Positions 9,991 to 50,013 of a stretch of 64,000 bases of DNA are shown piece by piece. A program made the position numbers and the translations under genes. The DNA comes from Cycloclasticus sp. Lineage in GTDB: Bacteria; Pseudomonadota; Gammaproteobacteria; Methylococcales; Cycloclasticaceae. Each line of letters starts with the position of its first letter. Position 1 is the first letter of the stretch. The DNA is taken from contig JBFLJU010000001.1 in assembly GCA_040743155.1 (NCBI GenBank), positions 1,674,001 through 1,738,000 on the forward strand. The letters run 5' to 3'. The notes under the pieces were generated by a model that was not told where the DNA came from, did not search any database, and saw nothing but the letters and a program-made list of their open reading frames with translations.

Positions 9991-10066
9991 TGGTGGGTCG
10001 TGCGCGATTCGAACGCGCGACCATCGCATTAAAAGTGCGGTGCTCTACCGGCTGAGCTAACGACCC
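9991..10066 (-). tRNA. tRNA-Lys (anticodon TTT)
   Basis: The 76-nt cloverleaf on the minus strand has acceptor GGGTCGT paired with ACGACCC, an encoded CCA end, a D-arm GCTC...GAGC, an anticodon loop CTTTTAA and a T-loop GTTCGAATC. It lies just downstream of queC, as in Pseudomonas, where the equivalent tRNA-Lys is an integration site for PAPI-1-type islands. Confidence 0.97.
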
Positions 10067-10154
10067 TCCAAGAGCGGTGCATGATACCGGATTGACGCAA
10101 AAAGACAAGTCGAATTTGCGACTTTAAATGTTAATTTTTATACTACTACTAACT

Positions 10155-10829
10155 TTAGTACTGATAGCGGGTGACGTCGGCTAGATGCGCCTTTTCAAAA
10201 CCTTGCTTACGTAAACGGCACGATTCGCATTCACCACATGCTTCACCCTTTGCATTGGCTTGATAACAAGACACCGTTGCGCTGTAATCGACCTTTAAGG
10301 CATCACCTTTTGCTATTATTTGAGCCTTACTGAGGTTAATTAGCGGTGTGTGTATTTTAAACTTACCTTGTTCAACGCCTGCTTTAGTGGCTAAGTTAGC
10401 CAAGCTCTCAAACGCCTTAATAAACTCAGGGCGGCAATCGGGGTAGCCCGAGTAATCCACCGCATTAACGCCAATAAAGATATCCCACGCATCTAGCACT
10501 TCTGCCCAACCTAGTGCTATAGAAAGAAAAACCGTATTTCTCGCTGGTACGTAGGTGACAGGAATGCCCGCTGACTTTTCAATCGGAACGTTTATGTTTT
10601 CATCTGTTAGCGCAGAGCCACCAAATTCACCCATTCCTAATTTTATTGTTTTGTGTTCTGAGACATTAAAAGTTTTAGCTAACTGGCTAGCCGCCTCCAA
10701 TTCAGAATTATGGCGCTGCCCGTAATCAAAACTGAGTGCATAACACTCATAACCTTGTTCTTTGGCGATCGCCAAAACGGTGGCTGAATCTAACCCACCG
10801 GAAACTAATACTACTGCTTTTTTAGACAT
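10155..10829 (-). CDS. queC: 7-cyano-7-deazaguanine synthase
   Basis: QueC converts 7-carboxy-7-deazaguanine and ammonia to preQ0, using ATP, in queuosine tRNA-modification biosynthesis. The N-terminus shows the PP-loop [11 protein letters not shown], followed by SFDYGQRH. The C-terminal zinc site is visible as C-X8-C-X2-C-X2-C in the segment [17 protein letters not shown]. The length of 224 residues is normal. The ATG at 10829 is preferred over the adjacent GTG at 10832. It lies 21 bp downstream of queE, so the two pathway enzymes are co-transcribed, probably as the tail of the tol-pal transcript. Confidence 0.95.
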
Positions 10830-10850
10830 CACTTAATCTTTTATGGTTTG

Positions 10851-11498
10851 TTACTTACCGGGCGTGTCGCCCCACAAGTATTTATGGAGCTGAATCTGAA
10901 ATCTTACTGGCAGCTTTTCCTCTATCACCCAATTTGCAAGATCTACTGCTTGAAGCTGCCCTTGCACCGGTGAAAACAGTATTTCGCATTTATCGGCCAG
11001 CTCATGCTCTTGCATGTGTTGTTTCGACCAATCAAAATCTGTTTTATCACAAATAACGTATTTTACTTGATCACCTTTTGCTAGGTATTGATAATTTTCA
11101 TGAAGGTTTTTAGCCATCTCACCAGAACCCGGGGTTTTAACGTCTAGTACTTTAATAACACGCTGGTCGACCTCAGAGACACTCAATGCACCGCTGGTTT
11201 CTAATGAAACATGGTAGCCAGCATCGCATAATTGGCGCATCAAATCATGCACCCGTTTTTGCGCCAATGGCTCACCACCGGTTACATTAATATACTGTGC
11301 ACCCTGCTTATCAACTTCTTCAAGAATGTCGTCAATGCGGCGAGTTTCACCGCCATGAAATGCATACTCTGTATCACAGTAACCACACCGCAAAGGGCAG
11401 CCCGTTAGGCGGATAAAGGTCGTAGGCAAGCCCACTGTTTTACCTTCCCCTTGCAGTGAATAAAAAATTTCCGTAATACGTAAACTATCTTTCGACAT
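10851..11498 (-). CDS. queE: 7-carboxy-7-deazaguanine synthase (radical SAM)
   Basis: This 215-residue radical-SAM enzyme rearranges 6-carboxytetrahydropterin to 7-carboxy-7-deazaguanine, the substrate of QueC. The CX3CX2C cluster motif is TGCPLRCGYCDT near residues 33-43. YSLQGEG at the N-terminus and NVTGGEPL are family hallmarks. It lies between cpoB (30-bp gap) and queC (21-bp gap) on the same strand. The pathway's folE, queD and queF homologues are not in the window. Confidence 0.95.
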   Translation of the reverse strand: MSKDSLRITEIFYSLQGEGKTVGLPTTFIRLTGCPLRCGYCDTEYAFHGGETRRIDDILEEVDKQGAQYINVTGGEPLAQKRVHDLMRQLCDAGYHVSLETSGALSVSEVDQRVIKVLDVKTPGSGEMAKNLHENYQYLAKGDQVKYVICDKTDFDWSKQHMQEHELADKCEILFSPVQGQLQAVDLANWVIEEKLPVRFQIQLHKYLWGDTPGK

Positions 11499-11528
11499 AG
11501 CGATTACAACTGGGCCTTAAGTAAGTGA

Positions 11529-12302
11529 TTAATGTTTATCTTGCCGCATTTTGGCAAGCCTTTTCTTGGCGAGGCTGGCTACGGTGGTTCCTGGGTACGC
11601 TGCAGTCACTTTTTCTAACGTTACCGTTGCTTGTTGCCATTGTTTATTTTCGTATTGAATAAAGCCGACTTTCAACATCGCATCTTTTGCCTTTGAATGT
11701 GCGGGGTACTGCGATATCACTTTGCTAAACTCATCAAACGCACGCTTAAAATCGCGGTTTACATAACTCGCTTCGCCTAACCAATACAGAGCATTGGGTA
11801 TATAAATACTGTTAGGAAAACTAGAAACAAACTCCGTAAAGTCGGTAATTGACTGCTGATATCGACCCGACTTTAAGCTTGAAAATGCCTTATCGTATGC
11901 CAGCTTATCGTGCCCGCCTGCCACCACTGATGACTGAACCGTTTGAGCCGGTACGCCATTTTGCGCTTCGACTGGCGTTAGCTGCCCGATGTTTGGCAAG
12001 GTTTTTTTACCGGCTTCTAATTGGACAATTCGTCTATCGGTATCAAGATATAAATCACGCTGACGTTTTTTCAGCGTTTCAATTAGGTAGTTTTGCTCTT
12101 CAATTTGACCACGCATTTGCTGAACTTCACGCTGAAGCTGCTCAAGCCGGTTGTACATACCTAACAAGCTAGCAGCCGATGTTTGCGCGGGTGCTACCGA
12201 TAAGCGCCCACTAGTGCCATCCACAACTGGCGGTAGGGCTGCCGAAGCAGCCCCACTCATAAGCATTAAGGCGGCAAACCGCCCTATTGTTTTTTTACTC
12301 AT
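11529..12302 (-). CDS. cpoB: Tol-Pal system coordinator of cell division (YbgF/CpoB)
   Basis: The 257-residue periplasmic protein has a signal peptide ending near GAASA. An N-terminal trimerising coiled coil (LEQLQREVQQMRGQIEEQ) follows, then C-terminal TPR-type repeats (YDKAFSSLKSGRYQQSITDF, NALYWLGEASYVNRDF). CpoB links Tol-Pal constriction energy to peptidoglycan synthesis by PBP1B in well-studied species. Its ATG overlaps the pal stop in a TGATG arrangement, indicating coupled translation. The upstream TTG at 12305 is a less likely start. Confidence 0.93.
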   Translation of the reverse strand: MSKKTIGRFAALMLMSGAASAALPPVVDGTSGRLSVAPAQTSAASLLGMYNRLEQLQREVQQMRGQIEEQNYLIETLKKRQRDLYLDTDRRIVQLEAGKKTLPNIGQLTPVEAQNGVPAQTVQSSVVAGGHDKLAYDKAFSSLKSGRYQQSITDFTEFVSSFPNSIYIPNALYWLGEASYVNRDFKRAFDEFSKVISQYPAHSKAKDAMLKVGFIQYENKQWQQATVTLEKVTAAYPGTTVASLAKKRLAKMRQDKH

Positions 12303-12838
12303 CAATGTGCTGGGTAAATAAGTTCAACACGGCGGTTTAAATGCCAAGCTGATTCATCATGTCCTCTTGCAACTGGCTTTTCTTCACCAAGAGCTACCGC
12401 TTCGGTTTGGTGAGCCGACGCACCTTGAAGTGATAATAGATTTTGAACCGTTTTCGCACGTTTTTCACTCAACGCTACGTTGTATTCACGCGTTCCACGT
12501 TCGTCGGCATGGCCTTCAACAATAACTGAAACATTGCTGTTTGCAGCTAAATACGCACCATGTGCTGCCAATACTGCTTCGTATTGAGGCTGTACCGCAC
12601 TGCTATCAAACGCAAAGTAAATAACCTTTGTTGACAAGGGGCTTGATGGATTATCAAGCGGGTGCCCTGAAAAACTACTGCCATCGCCAACACCACTTGT
12701 TGTTGCACCACCGCTCGCACTACCGTTCGCACTACCTGCTATTCCTGAGCCGGCGTCTTCGTCGCCACCAAACATACTACAACCCGCTAAAACCGTTGAA
12801 AGCAAAAGAGCAGTTAATAAATTCTTACAGATTTTCAT
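12302..12838 (-). CDS. pal: peptidoglycan-associated lipoprotein Pal
   Basis: Pal is an outer-membrane lipoprotein that binds meso-DAP of peptidoglycan and TolB. The 178-residue precursor has a type II signal peptide with lipobox LAGC (Cys near residue 20). A Gly/Ser-rich linker leads to a C-terminal OmpA-like domain with the motif EGHADERGTREYNVALSEKR, which carries the conserved Asp and Arg that contact peptidoglycan. It sits between tolB and cpoB in the canonical order. Confidence 0.97.
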   Translation of the reverse strand: MKICKNLLTALLLSTVLAGCSMFGGDEDAGSGIAGSANGSASGGATTSGVGDGSSFSGHPLDNPSSPLSTKVIYFAFDSSAVQPQYEAVLAAHGAYLAANSNVSVIVEGHADERGTREYNVALSEKRAKTVQNLLSLQGASAHQTEAVALGEEKPVARGHDESAWHLNRRVELIYPAH

Positions 12839-12852
12839 TTTTATTCCTTACG

Positions 12853-14154
12853 TTAATATTTAAAAGGCGACCACGCTGGTTCTCTCACTTCACCACCTTG
12901 CAGACGAAGCTTTTGACGAACTTTACCGTCAGATGATACCGCAGCTAAAATGGATTTCAAGCCATCATTGGTTGAATATAAAATCATACTGCCATTAGGC
13001 GCGTAACTCGGTGATTCATCTAATTTTCCATTCGTTAAAATATTAGTGAAACCGGTCTTCAAATCCATTGTAGCAATTCGGTACTGGCCGTTAACTCGAT
13101 GCACCATCGTAATGTATTTTCCATCTGGTGAATAACTGGCTCTCGCGTTATACGAGCCTTCGAAAGTTATTCGACCTGCCTGCCCACCGTTTGCCGAAAT
13201 TCGGTAAATTTGTGGCTTACCACCTCGGTCAGAGGTGAAAATAATCTGACGCCCATCAGGCGACCAATCCGGCTCCGTATCAATAGCATAACTTCTCGTT
13301 AAACGACGAAATGAGCGAGTGATCACATTATAAATATAAATATCGGCGCTCCCGTCTTTAGAAAGCGTTAACGCTAATTGGCTACCGTCTGGCGACCATG
13401 AGGGTGCGCCATTGATCCCTTTGAATGAATGTAACTTCTCACGTTGCCCGGTCCTAAGTGTTTGTGTATAGATCGAGGAACGTCGCTGTTCATACGACAC
13501 GTAAGAAATCTTATCGCCTGTTGGCGACCAAGCCGGTGACATAACCGGTTCAGATGAGGTCACTATTGTTTTCGCGCCGTAGCCATCAGCATCCGCTACT
13601 TGAATTTTATATTCCGTTTGACCATTCGCTCCAGGCATCGATGTGACGTAGGCCATTCTGGTACTAAAGGCACCTTTTTGACCGGTTAATTTTTCATAGA
13701 TCAAATCACTAATTCGATGCGCGACACCCCGCAAACTCGAGCGGTTAGCAGGAATACTAAACCCCGTTAACTGCTCTCCTTTATACACATCAAACAATTG
13801 AAATTGAACCGATAAGCTACCATTCGCAGCGGACGTTACCTTGCCAATAACTAGGTTATCTTGCCCCAACGCCTGCCAGTTACGAAAATTCACCTGTTCA
13901 GCCGATGATGGTTTGCTCAACATGTCGGTACGCGGCAATGCCTTAAAACGACCACTTCGCGCCAAGTCATCAGCAATAATTTGAGCTATATCAACCGGCA
14001 AACCACCCATAACCTGCGCGCTTGAAAACGGCACAACGACAATCGGTTGAGCGGATGAAACGCCTTGCGTTATTTCAATTCTCAAGGCGTCAGCCACGGC
14101 AGAAAAACTCAACAACACGCATAACAATAAACTGGCTTTAATCATTCTGGTCAT
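12853..14154 (-). CDS. tolB: Tol-Pal system beta-propeller protein TolB
   Basis: This 433-residue periplasmic protein has a Sec signal peptide ending near VADA. An N-terminal alpha/beta domain (VVVPFSSAQ...IIADDLARSGRFKAL) is followed by a six-bladed propeller with repeated (S/A)WSPDG and SPDGKYI motifs. It shuttles between Pal and TolA during outer-membrane constriction. It is 6 bp from tolA and 14 bp from pal, consistent with one operon. Confidence 0.97.
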   Translation of the reverse strand: MTRMIKASLLLCVLLSFSAVADALRIEITQGVSSAQPIVVVPFSSAQVMGGLPVDIAQIIADDLARSGRFKALPRTDMLSKPSSAEQVNFRNWQALGQDNLVIGKVTSAANGSLSVQFQLFDVYKGEQLTGFSIPANRSSLRGVAHRISDLIYEKLTGQKGAFSTRMAYVTSMPGANGQTEYKIQVADADGYGAKTIVTSSEPVMSPAWSPTGDKISYVSYEQRRSSIYTQTLRTGQREKLHSFKGINGAPSWSPDGSQLALTLSKDGSADIYIYNVITRSFRRLTRSYAIDTEPDWSPDGRQIIFTSDRGGKPQIYRISANGGQAGRITFEGSYNARASYSPDGKYITMVHRVNGQYRIATMDLKTGFTNILTNGKLDESPSYAPNGSMILYSTNDGLKSILAAVSSDGKVRQKLRLQGGEVREPAWSPFKY

Positions 14155-48709: not shown

Positions 48710-49135
48710 ATGGCTAGATTATCAATAACATACCCACAACGGACACTATTTAGTTGCGCATTACCCGTTCGCATTACTGACATTAATTACGGGCAACATC
48801 TAGCGCACGACAAACTCATTTCAATGATTCACGAAGCCCGCGCGCAGTTCTTCCTTCATTTTAATATGCAAGAATCCAATATCGCCGGATTGGGCATTAT
48901 CTTGGCCGATCTATCGATTAGCTACCAAGCCGAATCGTTTTACCCCGACATACTTAGGATTGAAATGGCGTTAGATGAGCCTAGCCGCTGTGGCTGCAAT
49001 ATGATTTACCAAATAACTCGGGATAATGGCGAAACTGTCGTCGCTACTGCAAAAACGGGGTTGGTGTTTTTTGATTACGACAAGAAAAAAGTTGCCAGCA
49101 TGCCGAATGAATTTAAACAACTACTCAGTCAATGA
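48710..49135 (+). CDS. hot-dog-fold acyl-CoA thioesterase
   Basis: The 141-residue protein has the 4-hydroxybenzoyl-CoA thioesterase-like motif RITDINYGQHLAHDKLISMIHEAR and SYQAESFYPDIL. The substrate is unknown. Its stop overlaps the next gene (ATGA), coupling it to a dehalogenase-like hydrolase. Confidence 0.82.
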   Translation: MARLSITYPQRTLFSCALPVRITDINYGQHLAHDKLISMIHEARAQFFLHFNMQESNIAGLGIILADLSISYQAESFYPDILRIEMALDEPSRCGCNMIYQITRDNGETVVATAKTGLVFFDYDKKKVASMPNEFKQLLSQ

Positions 49136-50013
49136 CAACGCCATTGAAACTTCACGGCTTTGATTACCAAACAGTCATTACTCAAGGCGCCACCATTAAT
49201 GTCGCCAGCGCTGGAAGTGGTCCCGCACTACTGTTGTTACACGGCTACCCACAAACCCATTTGATGTGGCATAAAATCGCACCGTCTCTGGCTAAGAAAC
49301 ATCACATTATTTGCCCTGATTTACGCGGCTATGGCGATAGCTCGAAACCTGACAGTGACGCTCAACATCGGCCATACAGCAAGCGGGAAATGGCCAACGA
49401 TATGATCGAAGTGATGAGGCAAATGGGATACGAACGTTTTTTCGTTGTGGGACACGATAGAGGCGCACGCGTTGCCCACCGCATGGCGTTAGATTTTCCA
49501 GCAAAGATTTTAAAAGCCGCCTTTTTAGACATAATTCCAACCTATGAGATGTTTAAACAAATCGACCAGACCATCGCTACGAGCTACTACCACTGGTTTT
49601 TCTTGATCCAAGATAAGGGCGTTCCTGAGCACCTTATCGGGCTAGACCCAGATTTTTACCTAAACGATAAACTCAATAGATGGAGCCAATACCCAGAACA
49701 ATTTGATAACGCGATTGTTAATCAGTACTTGCGCTGCTTTAAGGACCCGGCAACCATTCACGCCACTTGCGAAGATTATCGCGCCGCTGCCAGTATCGAC
49801 CTTGAACACGATGAAGCTGATTTAGACAAAAAGGTCGGCTGTCCTTTACTTGTCCTCTGGGGCAAGCACGGCATCATGGGTAAGCACTTCGATATGCTCG
49901 ATATTTGGCAACAAAAAGCGGATAACGTGACCGGAAAAGCGCTAGATAGTGGGCACTTCTTGGCTGAAGAAGCCGCCAGTGAAACCTTAGAAAACCTGCT
50001 AAATTTTTTCTAA
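49132..50013 (+). CDS. haloacetate (fluoroacetate) dehalogenase-like alpha/beta hydrolase
   Basis: This 293-residue hydrolase has HGYPQTHLMWHKIAP. The nucleophile elbow is VGHDRGARVAHRMALDFP, in which the Asp replaces Ser and the two Arg residues match those binding the substrate carboxylate in fluoroacetate dehalogenases. The halide-cradle residues also appear: His-Trp in YYHWFF and Tyr in CEDYRAAA. The catalytic His lies in LDSGHFLAEEA. Activity on 2-haloacids is therefore likely; an epoxide hydrolase is the main alternative. It overlaps the thioesterase gene by 4 bp. Confidence 0.82.
   Translation: MTTPLKLHGFDYQTVITQGATINVASAGSGPALLLLHGYPQTHLMWHKIAPSLAKKHHIICPDLRGYGDSSKPDSDAQHRPYSKREMANDMIEVMRQMGYERFFVVGHDRGARVAHRMALDFPAKILKAAFLDIIPTYEMFKQIDQTIATSYYHWFFLIQDKGVPEHLIGLDPDFYLNDKLNRWSQYPEQFDNAIVNQYLRCFKDPATIHATCEDYRAAASIDLEHDEADLDKKVGCPLLVLWGKHGIMGKHFDMLDIWQQKADNVTGKALDSGHFLAEEAASETLENLLNFF

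Follow-up and report, generated by a model that had tools for sequence, protein, structure and literature searches.

We found that the gene at 49132-50013 on the forward strand of the analysed window, a stretch of 64,000 nucleotides at positions 1674001-1738000 of a single-contig Cycloclasticus sp. genome of 2.56 Mb, very probably encodes a soluble hydrolase of the fluoroacetate dehalogenase family (EC 3.8.1.3 type) that belongs to the NOS0089/DAR3835 branch and is likely to detoxify haloacetates. This assignment of the 293-amino-acid alpha/beta hydrolase draws on phmmer searches, alignments, an AlphaFold model and a phylogenetic tree. A preliminary description had placed a fluoroacetate-dehalogenase-like gene, coupled to a thioesterase gene, at 48710-50013, and the hydrolase reading frame is indeed present there and preceded by a thioesterase. 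The gene is a useful but ordinary find, an addition of the NOS0089/DAR3835 type to a known kind of enzyme whose close cousins have been tested in the laboratory. If active, it would enlarge the small group of difluoroacetate-type defluorinases by a marine, Cycloclasticus-like source and would suggest that an intact C-F pocket is maintained by selection in ocean bacteria. Our literature search found no paper joining Cycloclasticus and fluoroacetate.

Family, predicted fold and tree placement

In a phmmer search against the PDB, the best match of the hydrolase was 3qyj (Alr0039/NOS0089; E 3.2e-111), followed by 8sdc (DAR3835; E 7.1e-93), with 4nvr, RPA1163 and FA1 ranking behind these two. The NCBIfam equivalog of haloalkane dehalogenases, PRK03592, scored 69.0 bits, below its cut-off of 241. 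We modelled the protein with AlphaFold from an input of the window protein and 41 of 80 named loci that carry relatives of it, and obtained a mean pLDDT of 91.6. In VIA-align, 288 residues of the predicted structure superposed on 3qyj (55% identity) with Z 46.9 and an rmsd of 1.0 Å, and 8sdc gave Z 45.8 and rmsd 1.0; the structures of DAR3835, RPA1163 and FA1 gave Z values of 43-46. The modelled fold and cap are those of solved fluoroacetate dehalogenases (Z 43-47), and the overlay that the preliminary description had proposed as a check superposes the whole predicted chain at 1.0-1.4 Å. Because alignments whose Z values differ by no more than 1 count as ties, the subtypes cannot be ranked by structure alone.

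In a quick tree built from 37 sequences (eight proteins of the genus, nine references and controls, and 20 of the 80 loci), all proteins of the genus formed a single clade with an SH-aLRT support of 100. This clade groups with NOS0089 and DAR3835 at a support of 82, which lies under the 95 mark, while FA1, DehH1 and RPA1163 fall outside. RPA1163, 4nvr and two controls sit on long branches, and their placement is unsure. Together, the overlay and the grouping, with its modest support, speak for the fluoroacetate-dehalogenase-like reading.

Predicted active site and its relatives

The active-site residues listed in the preliminary description were all found. The predicted nucleophile D109 (codon at 49456-49458) lies in the elbow G107-H108-D109-R110-G111 and aligns with Asp104 of FA1 and Asp110 of RPA1163. 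It is directly followed by R110, a predicted carboxylate-binding Arg (FA1 Arg105, RPA1163 Arg111), and R113 (49468-49470) is the second such candidate (FA1 Arg108, RPA1163 Arg114). H154-W155 (49591-49596; RPA1163 His155-Trp156) and Y216 (49777-49779; RPA1163 Tyr219) would form the halide pocket, and the terminal H275 (49954-49956; RPA1163 His280) is predicted to activate water. Beyond these, we identified the predicted catalytic acid D133 (49528-49530; RPA1163 Asp134) and the cap residue W184, which completes a set of nine. All codons lie on the forward strand. By alignment, the protein possesses the Asp-His-Asp triad of EC 3.8.1.3 alpha/beta hydrolases (D109, H275, D133) as well as the two Arg residues and the His-Trp-Tyr halide pocket of fluoroacetate dehalogenases; displaced halide-site residues, named beforehand as a finding that would speak against the assignment, were not seen in the aligned sequences. 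Excerpts of two sources give the active site of FA1 as Asp104-His271-Asp128 with Arg105, Arg108, His149, Trp150 and Tyr212 (PMC11022551, PMC5485738).

By homology, the carboxylate of the substrate would be held by R110 and R113 and the leaving halide by H154, W155 and Y216. D109 would attack the alpha carbon in an SN2 reaction to form an ester, and water activated by H275 and D133 would then release glycolate. The enzyme probably acts on haloacetates, with fluoro-, chloro- and bromoacetate as likely substrates and possibly difluoroacetate, which would yield glyoxylate. According to a table in one review, NOS0089 and DAR3835 accept fluoroacetate, difluoroacetate and two further fluorinated acids, and a second review reports for three enzymes of this sort that difluoroacetate is turned over at a rate comparable to that of monofluoroacetate (PMC11022551, PMC11003709).

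The full set of nine residues is present in the alignment of all five characterised enzymes (NOS0089, DAR3835, RPA1163, FA1 and DehH1). NOS0089 of Nostoc sp. PCC 7120 is 55-56% identical to the window protein, but comes from another host and carries C for K at position 180 and I for M at 249. DAR3835 of Dechloromonas aromatica (8sdc/8sdd; 46-50% identity, rmsd 1.0-1.1) likewise has C at 180, with F/V at 248/249. RPA1163 of Rhodopseudomonas palustris (3r3u and others; 44-48%, rmsd ~1.1-1.3) shares K180 in addition to the nine residues, whereas it has F for Y39 and lies outside the NOS0089/DAR3835 group, on its long branch of unsure placement. DehH1 of pUO1 and FA1 (FAc-DEX FA1) are 44-47% identical and, unlike the window protein, form a branch of their own.

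The nine residues are invariant in a 42-row alignment of the window protein with 41 of the 80 loci, as well as in all 87 tblastn alignments, which comprise the 80 named loci and seven loci of the genus, about five of the latter repeating named contigs. Other alpha/beta hydrolases of the same genome were examined as a control; six reading frames, of eight loci tried, aligned over the site, and all carry Ser at the nucleophile position. As these proteins are too distant for a sharp test, we turned to plasmid-borne relatives of 26-43% identity, ten of which we chose ourselves from a listing that sampled 986 records in 60 rows; to our knowledge, none of them is characterised. The full set was found in none of the ten, R113 being lost in nine and H154, W155 and Y216 in the tenth. 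At the level of aligned residues, the nine-residue set therefore discriminates between characterised fluoroacetate dehalogenases and the sampled relatives. This absence from all ten, together with the E value obtained for 3qyj, indicates that the residue match is not due to chance. The Salmonella enterica structure 4nvr, deposited as a putative acyltransferase, shares 47% of its residues with the window protein but carries W in place of H154 and Q in place of W184, so that overall similarity alone cannot secure the pocket.

These comparisons also bear on whether the gene might encode an epoxide hydrolase or another Asp-nucleophile (Cif-like) hydrolase that merely resembles dehalogenases. The fold family is shared, and the cap His and Tyr are also found in epoxide hydrolases. 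Cif and epoxide hydrolases occur among the PDB matches at E 1.7e-35 and weaker, and a group of Pseudomonas aeruginosa entries named 'probable epoxide hydrolase' (4b9a, 4bat) matches at E 5e-80 to 6e-81. However, the named fluoroacetate dehalogenases reach E 8e-81 to 2e-88, and NOS0089 3e-111, compared to that 1.7e-35 at best for the named soluble epoxide hydrolases, and R110, R113 and W155 are absent from all five relatives sampled at 26-30% identity. We consider an epoxide hydrolase or Cif-like enzyme highly improbable.

The upstream thioesterase and the gene neighbourhood

The dehalogenase gene is surrounded in the window by genes for EamA, 4HBT_2 and PcnB proteins. Directly upstream, at 48710-49135 on the same strand, lies the gene of a 141-amino-acid hot-dog thioesterase of the 4HBT_2 (FadM-like) type, which we treat as a neighbour with, at most, a putative part in the function. 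The two genes share four nucleotides (ATGA, 49132-49135). The order thioesterase, dehalogenase, pcnB and folK is common to all five of the nearest named contigs, four of them Cycloclasticus MAGs and one labelled Piscirickettsiaceae, at protein identities of 71-78%. A promoter and terminator scan returned two promoter-like sites where 3.5 were expected, and no fluoride riboswitch above the Rfam gathering scores was found in the three stretches searched (L109, L089, L128). A phage origin was also considered and rejected: five phage records matched, and the sole one spanning most of the protein is 27.7% identical.

Only two Pfam families matched the thioesterase at E <= 0.001, namely PF13279 (4HBT_2; 74.5 bits, cut-off 25.5) and, just above its cut-off, PF01643 (25.2 versus 23.7 bits), and the YbgC/FadM NCBIfam model TIGR00051 scored 33.0 bits, below its cut-off of 68.7. 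We therefore label the protein no more closely than 'FadM-like'. Elsewhere, the genome encodes a further member of the same Pfam family (G000:C1:1149051-1149464, in L128), a thioesterase with 47% identity to the first, and the type recurs in several genomes of the genus.

An arrangement of this kind is known from fluoroacetate gene clusters, in which FlK, a fluoroacetyl-CoA thioesterase (PF22636), is likewise a hot-dog protein encoded directly upstream of a fluoroacetate dehalogenase. On pUO1, we found a gene for a 294-amino-acid fluoroacetate dehalogenase (11276-12160) after an FlK gene (PF22636, 121 bits), followed by an IS481 transposase gene and crcB. We take this gene to be dehH1, because one of the two reviews places dehH1 on pUO1 with 294 amino acids and 61% identity to FA1 (PMC11022551, PMC11003709) and because FA1 is its best PDB match. 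The available part of a 2024 announcement on Caballeronia S22 describes genes for a methyltransferase, FlK, a dehalogenase and CrcB together (PMC11812338), and the row at 10043-13690 of pUO1 (methyltransferase, FlK-family thioesterase, fluoroacetate dehalogenase, crcB, with IS481 between the last two) resembles that cluster. The window locus differs from both. Its dehalogenase gene lacks the FlK and crcB flanks of dehH1; FlK had no match in the whole genome, in a search that finds it in five of 14 control genomes, and the single crcB of the genome is ~514 kb away from the dehalogenase gene. Among the stretches around the 80 named loci, several being cut short by the end of the contig, tblastn likewise gave no match to FlK or crcB.

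The thioesterase might nevertheless free haloacetate from haloacyl-CoA for dehalogenation by the hydrolase, so that the two genes would form a module standing in for the FlK-dehalogenase pair of pUO1. The four-nucleotide overlap, the same gene order in seven of 18 genus genomes and the fact that FlK immediately precedes the dehalogenase on pUO1 and, according to the announcement as excerpted, in Caballeronia S22 (PMC11812338) fit such a module. On the other hand, the window thioesterase belongs to another hot-dog family than FlK: PF22636 had no match in it, and BLASTP found no meaningful similarity to FlK of pUO1 (E 45). The two genes also occur separately within the genus. In three genomes (G001, G002, G016), the thioesterase gene adjoins pcnB without a dehalogenase gene, with 181-246 nt between the aligned parts, and in a fourth (G012) it stands beside a broken dehalogenase gene. 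Conversely, in the 78% complete genome G008 the dehalogenase gene and the aligned EamA gene are 67 nt apart, and the thioesterase has no match anywhere. Across 276 sampled genomes of the class, ten others have a relative of the dehalogenase and 14 others one of the thioesterase, none having both; this is a weak test, as only ~0.5 shared genomes would be expected by chance.

A joint module is thus very unlikely. Less likely still is its extended form, a lineage-specific haloacyl-CoA/haloacetate detoxification pair that would parallel the FlK-dehalogenase pair independently. Some Cycloclasticus, among them contigs labelled as symbionts of mussels and sponges, would retain it as protection from haloacetates that occur naturally in the sea, and its enzyme would also remove both fluorines of difluoroacetate. 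On the grounds of family, BLASTP similarity and separate occurrence, we rejected the thioesterase as an FlK-like partner. Of the coupling that had been proposed, the overlap itself stands, but its functional weight is not supported: the pairing hardly strengthens the functional assignment, and shared transcription rather than shared function is probably the best reading of the overlap. The separate fates of the two genes are a warning against inferring function from a short gene overlap.

Distribution, selection and likely role

An intact orthologue of the dehalogenase is present in eight of 18 genus genomes (five of the ten with a completeness of at least 90%) and accompanied by the thioesterase in seven of the eight; nine genomes lack the gene and one, G012, has a copy with several stops. 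In this copy (G012:C187:2954-3783; L097, L107, L135), the stops are joined by frame changes, while the adjoining thioesterase and pcnB genes are open. With ten of 18 genomes missing or breaking it, the dehalogenase is dispensable. When mapped onto a PcnB phylogeny that covers 15 of these 18 genomes, with G012 scored as lacking the dehalogenase and four of 12 inner branches well supported, the dehalogenase needs at least three changes of state and the thioesterase likewise three. Averaged over 28 genus pairs, the dehalogenase has a pN/pS of 0.22, somewhat higher than the thioesterase (0.16) and pcnB (0.17); pS is close to saturation for each of these genes. The dehalogenase, where kept, is under purifying selection, slightly weaker than that on its neighbours.

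At class level, a relative with an E value of 1e-60 or better was found in 11 of the 276 genomes, including the one studied here; some of these relatives are just 41-47% identical and are perhaps not dehalogenases. The thioesterase is present at five of the 80 named loci, all of the Cycloclasticus lineage. Few of the close same-strand neighbours of the relatives were named. Neighbours were clustered for 67 of the 80 loci, 13 having been dropped by a simple ORF picker, and outside the Cycloclasticus lineage the largest recurring families reach six of 67 loci; we thus rejected a conserved neighbourhood as a clue to the substrate.

Detoxification of haloacetates is the role we favour over growth on them. 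For GlcD, no match over the cut-off was found in the genome, and the nearest homologue is split across two frames; growth on the product is therefore not supported. This split gene of a GlcD-like FAD oxidase lies at G000:C1:387344-388556 (L150:1483-2788), where a sequencing error is possible, and its homologue is in one piece, likewise below the cut-off, in seven of 12 other genus genomes searched.

Compatible with a detoxifying dehalogenase is a variant in which chloro-, bromo- or iodoacetate is the natural substrate, activity on fluoroacetate a side effect and the thioesterase an unrelated operon neighbour. We give this variant slightly less than an even chance. The lack of an FlK match and of a linked crcB in the genome agrees with it, as does the lack of FlK and crcB matches at all 80 named loci. 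Against it stands W155, kept in all 87 alignments: its counterpart in FA1, Trp150, is reportedly required for C-F but dispensable for C-Cl cleavage, according to an excerpt of PMC11022551. In favour of the variant, and fitting haloacid substrates in general, the next gene in two of the 80 relatives (61 and 60% identical) encodes a type II haloacid dehalogenase above the NCBIfam cut-off. The two genes lie at L017:5960-6628 and L021:5970-6638, both in gammaproteobacterial MAGs.
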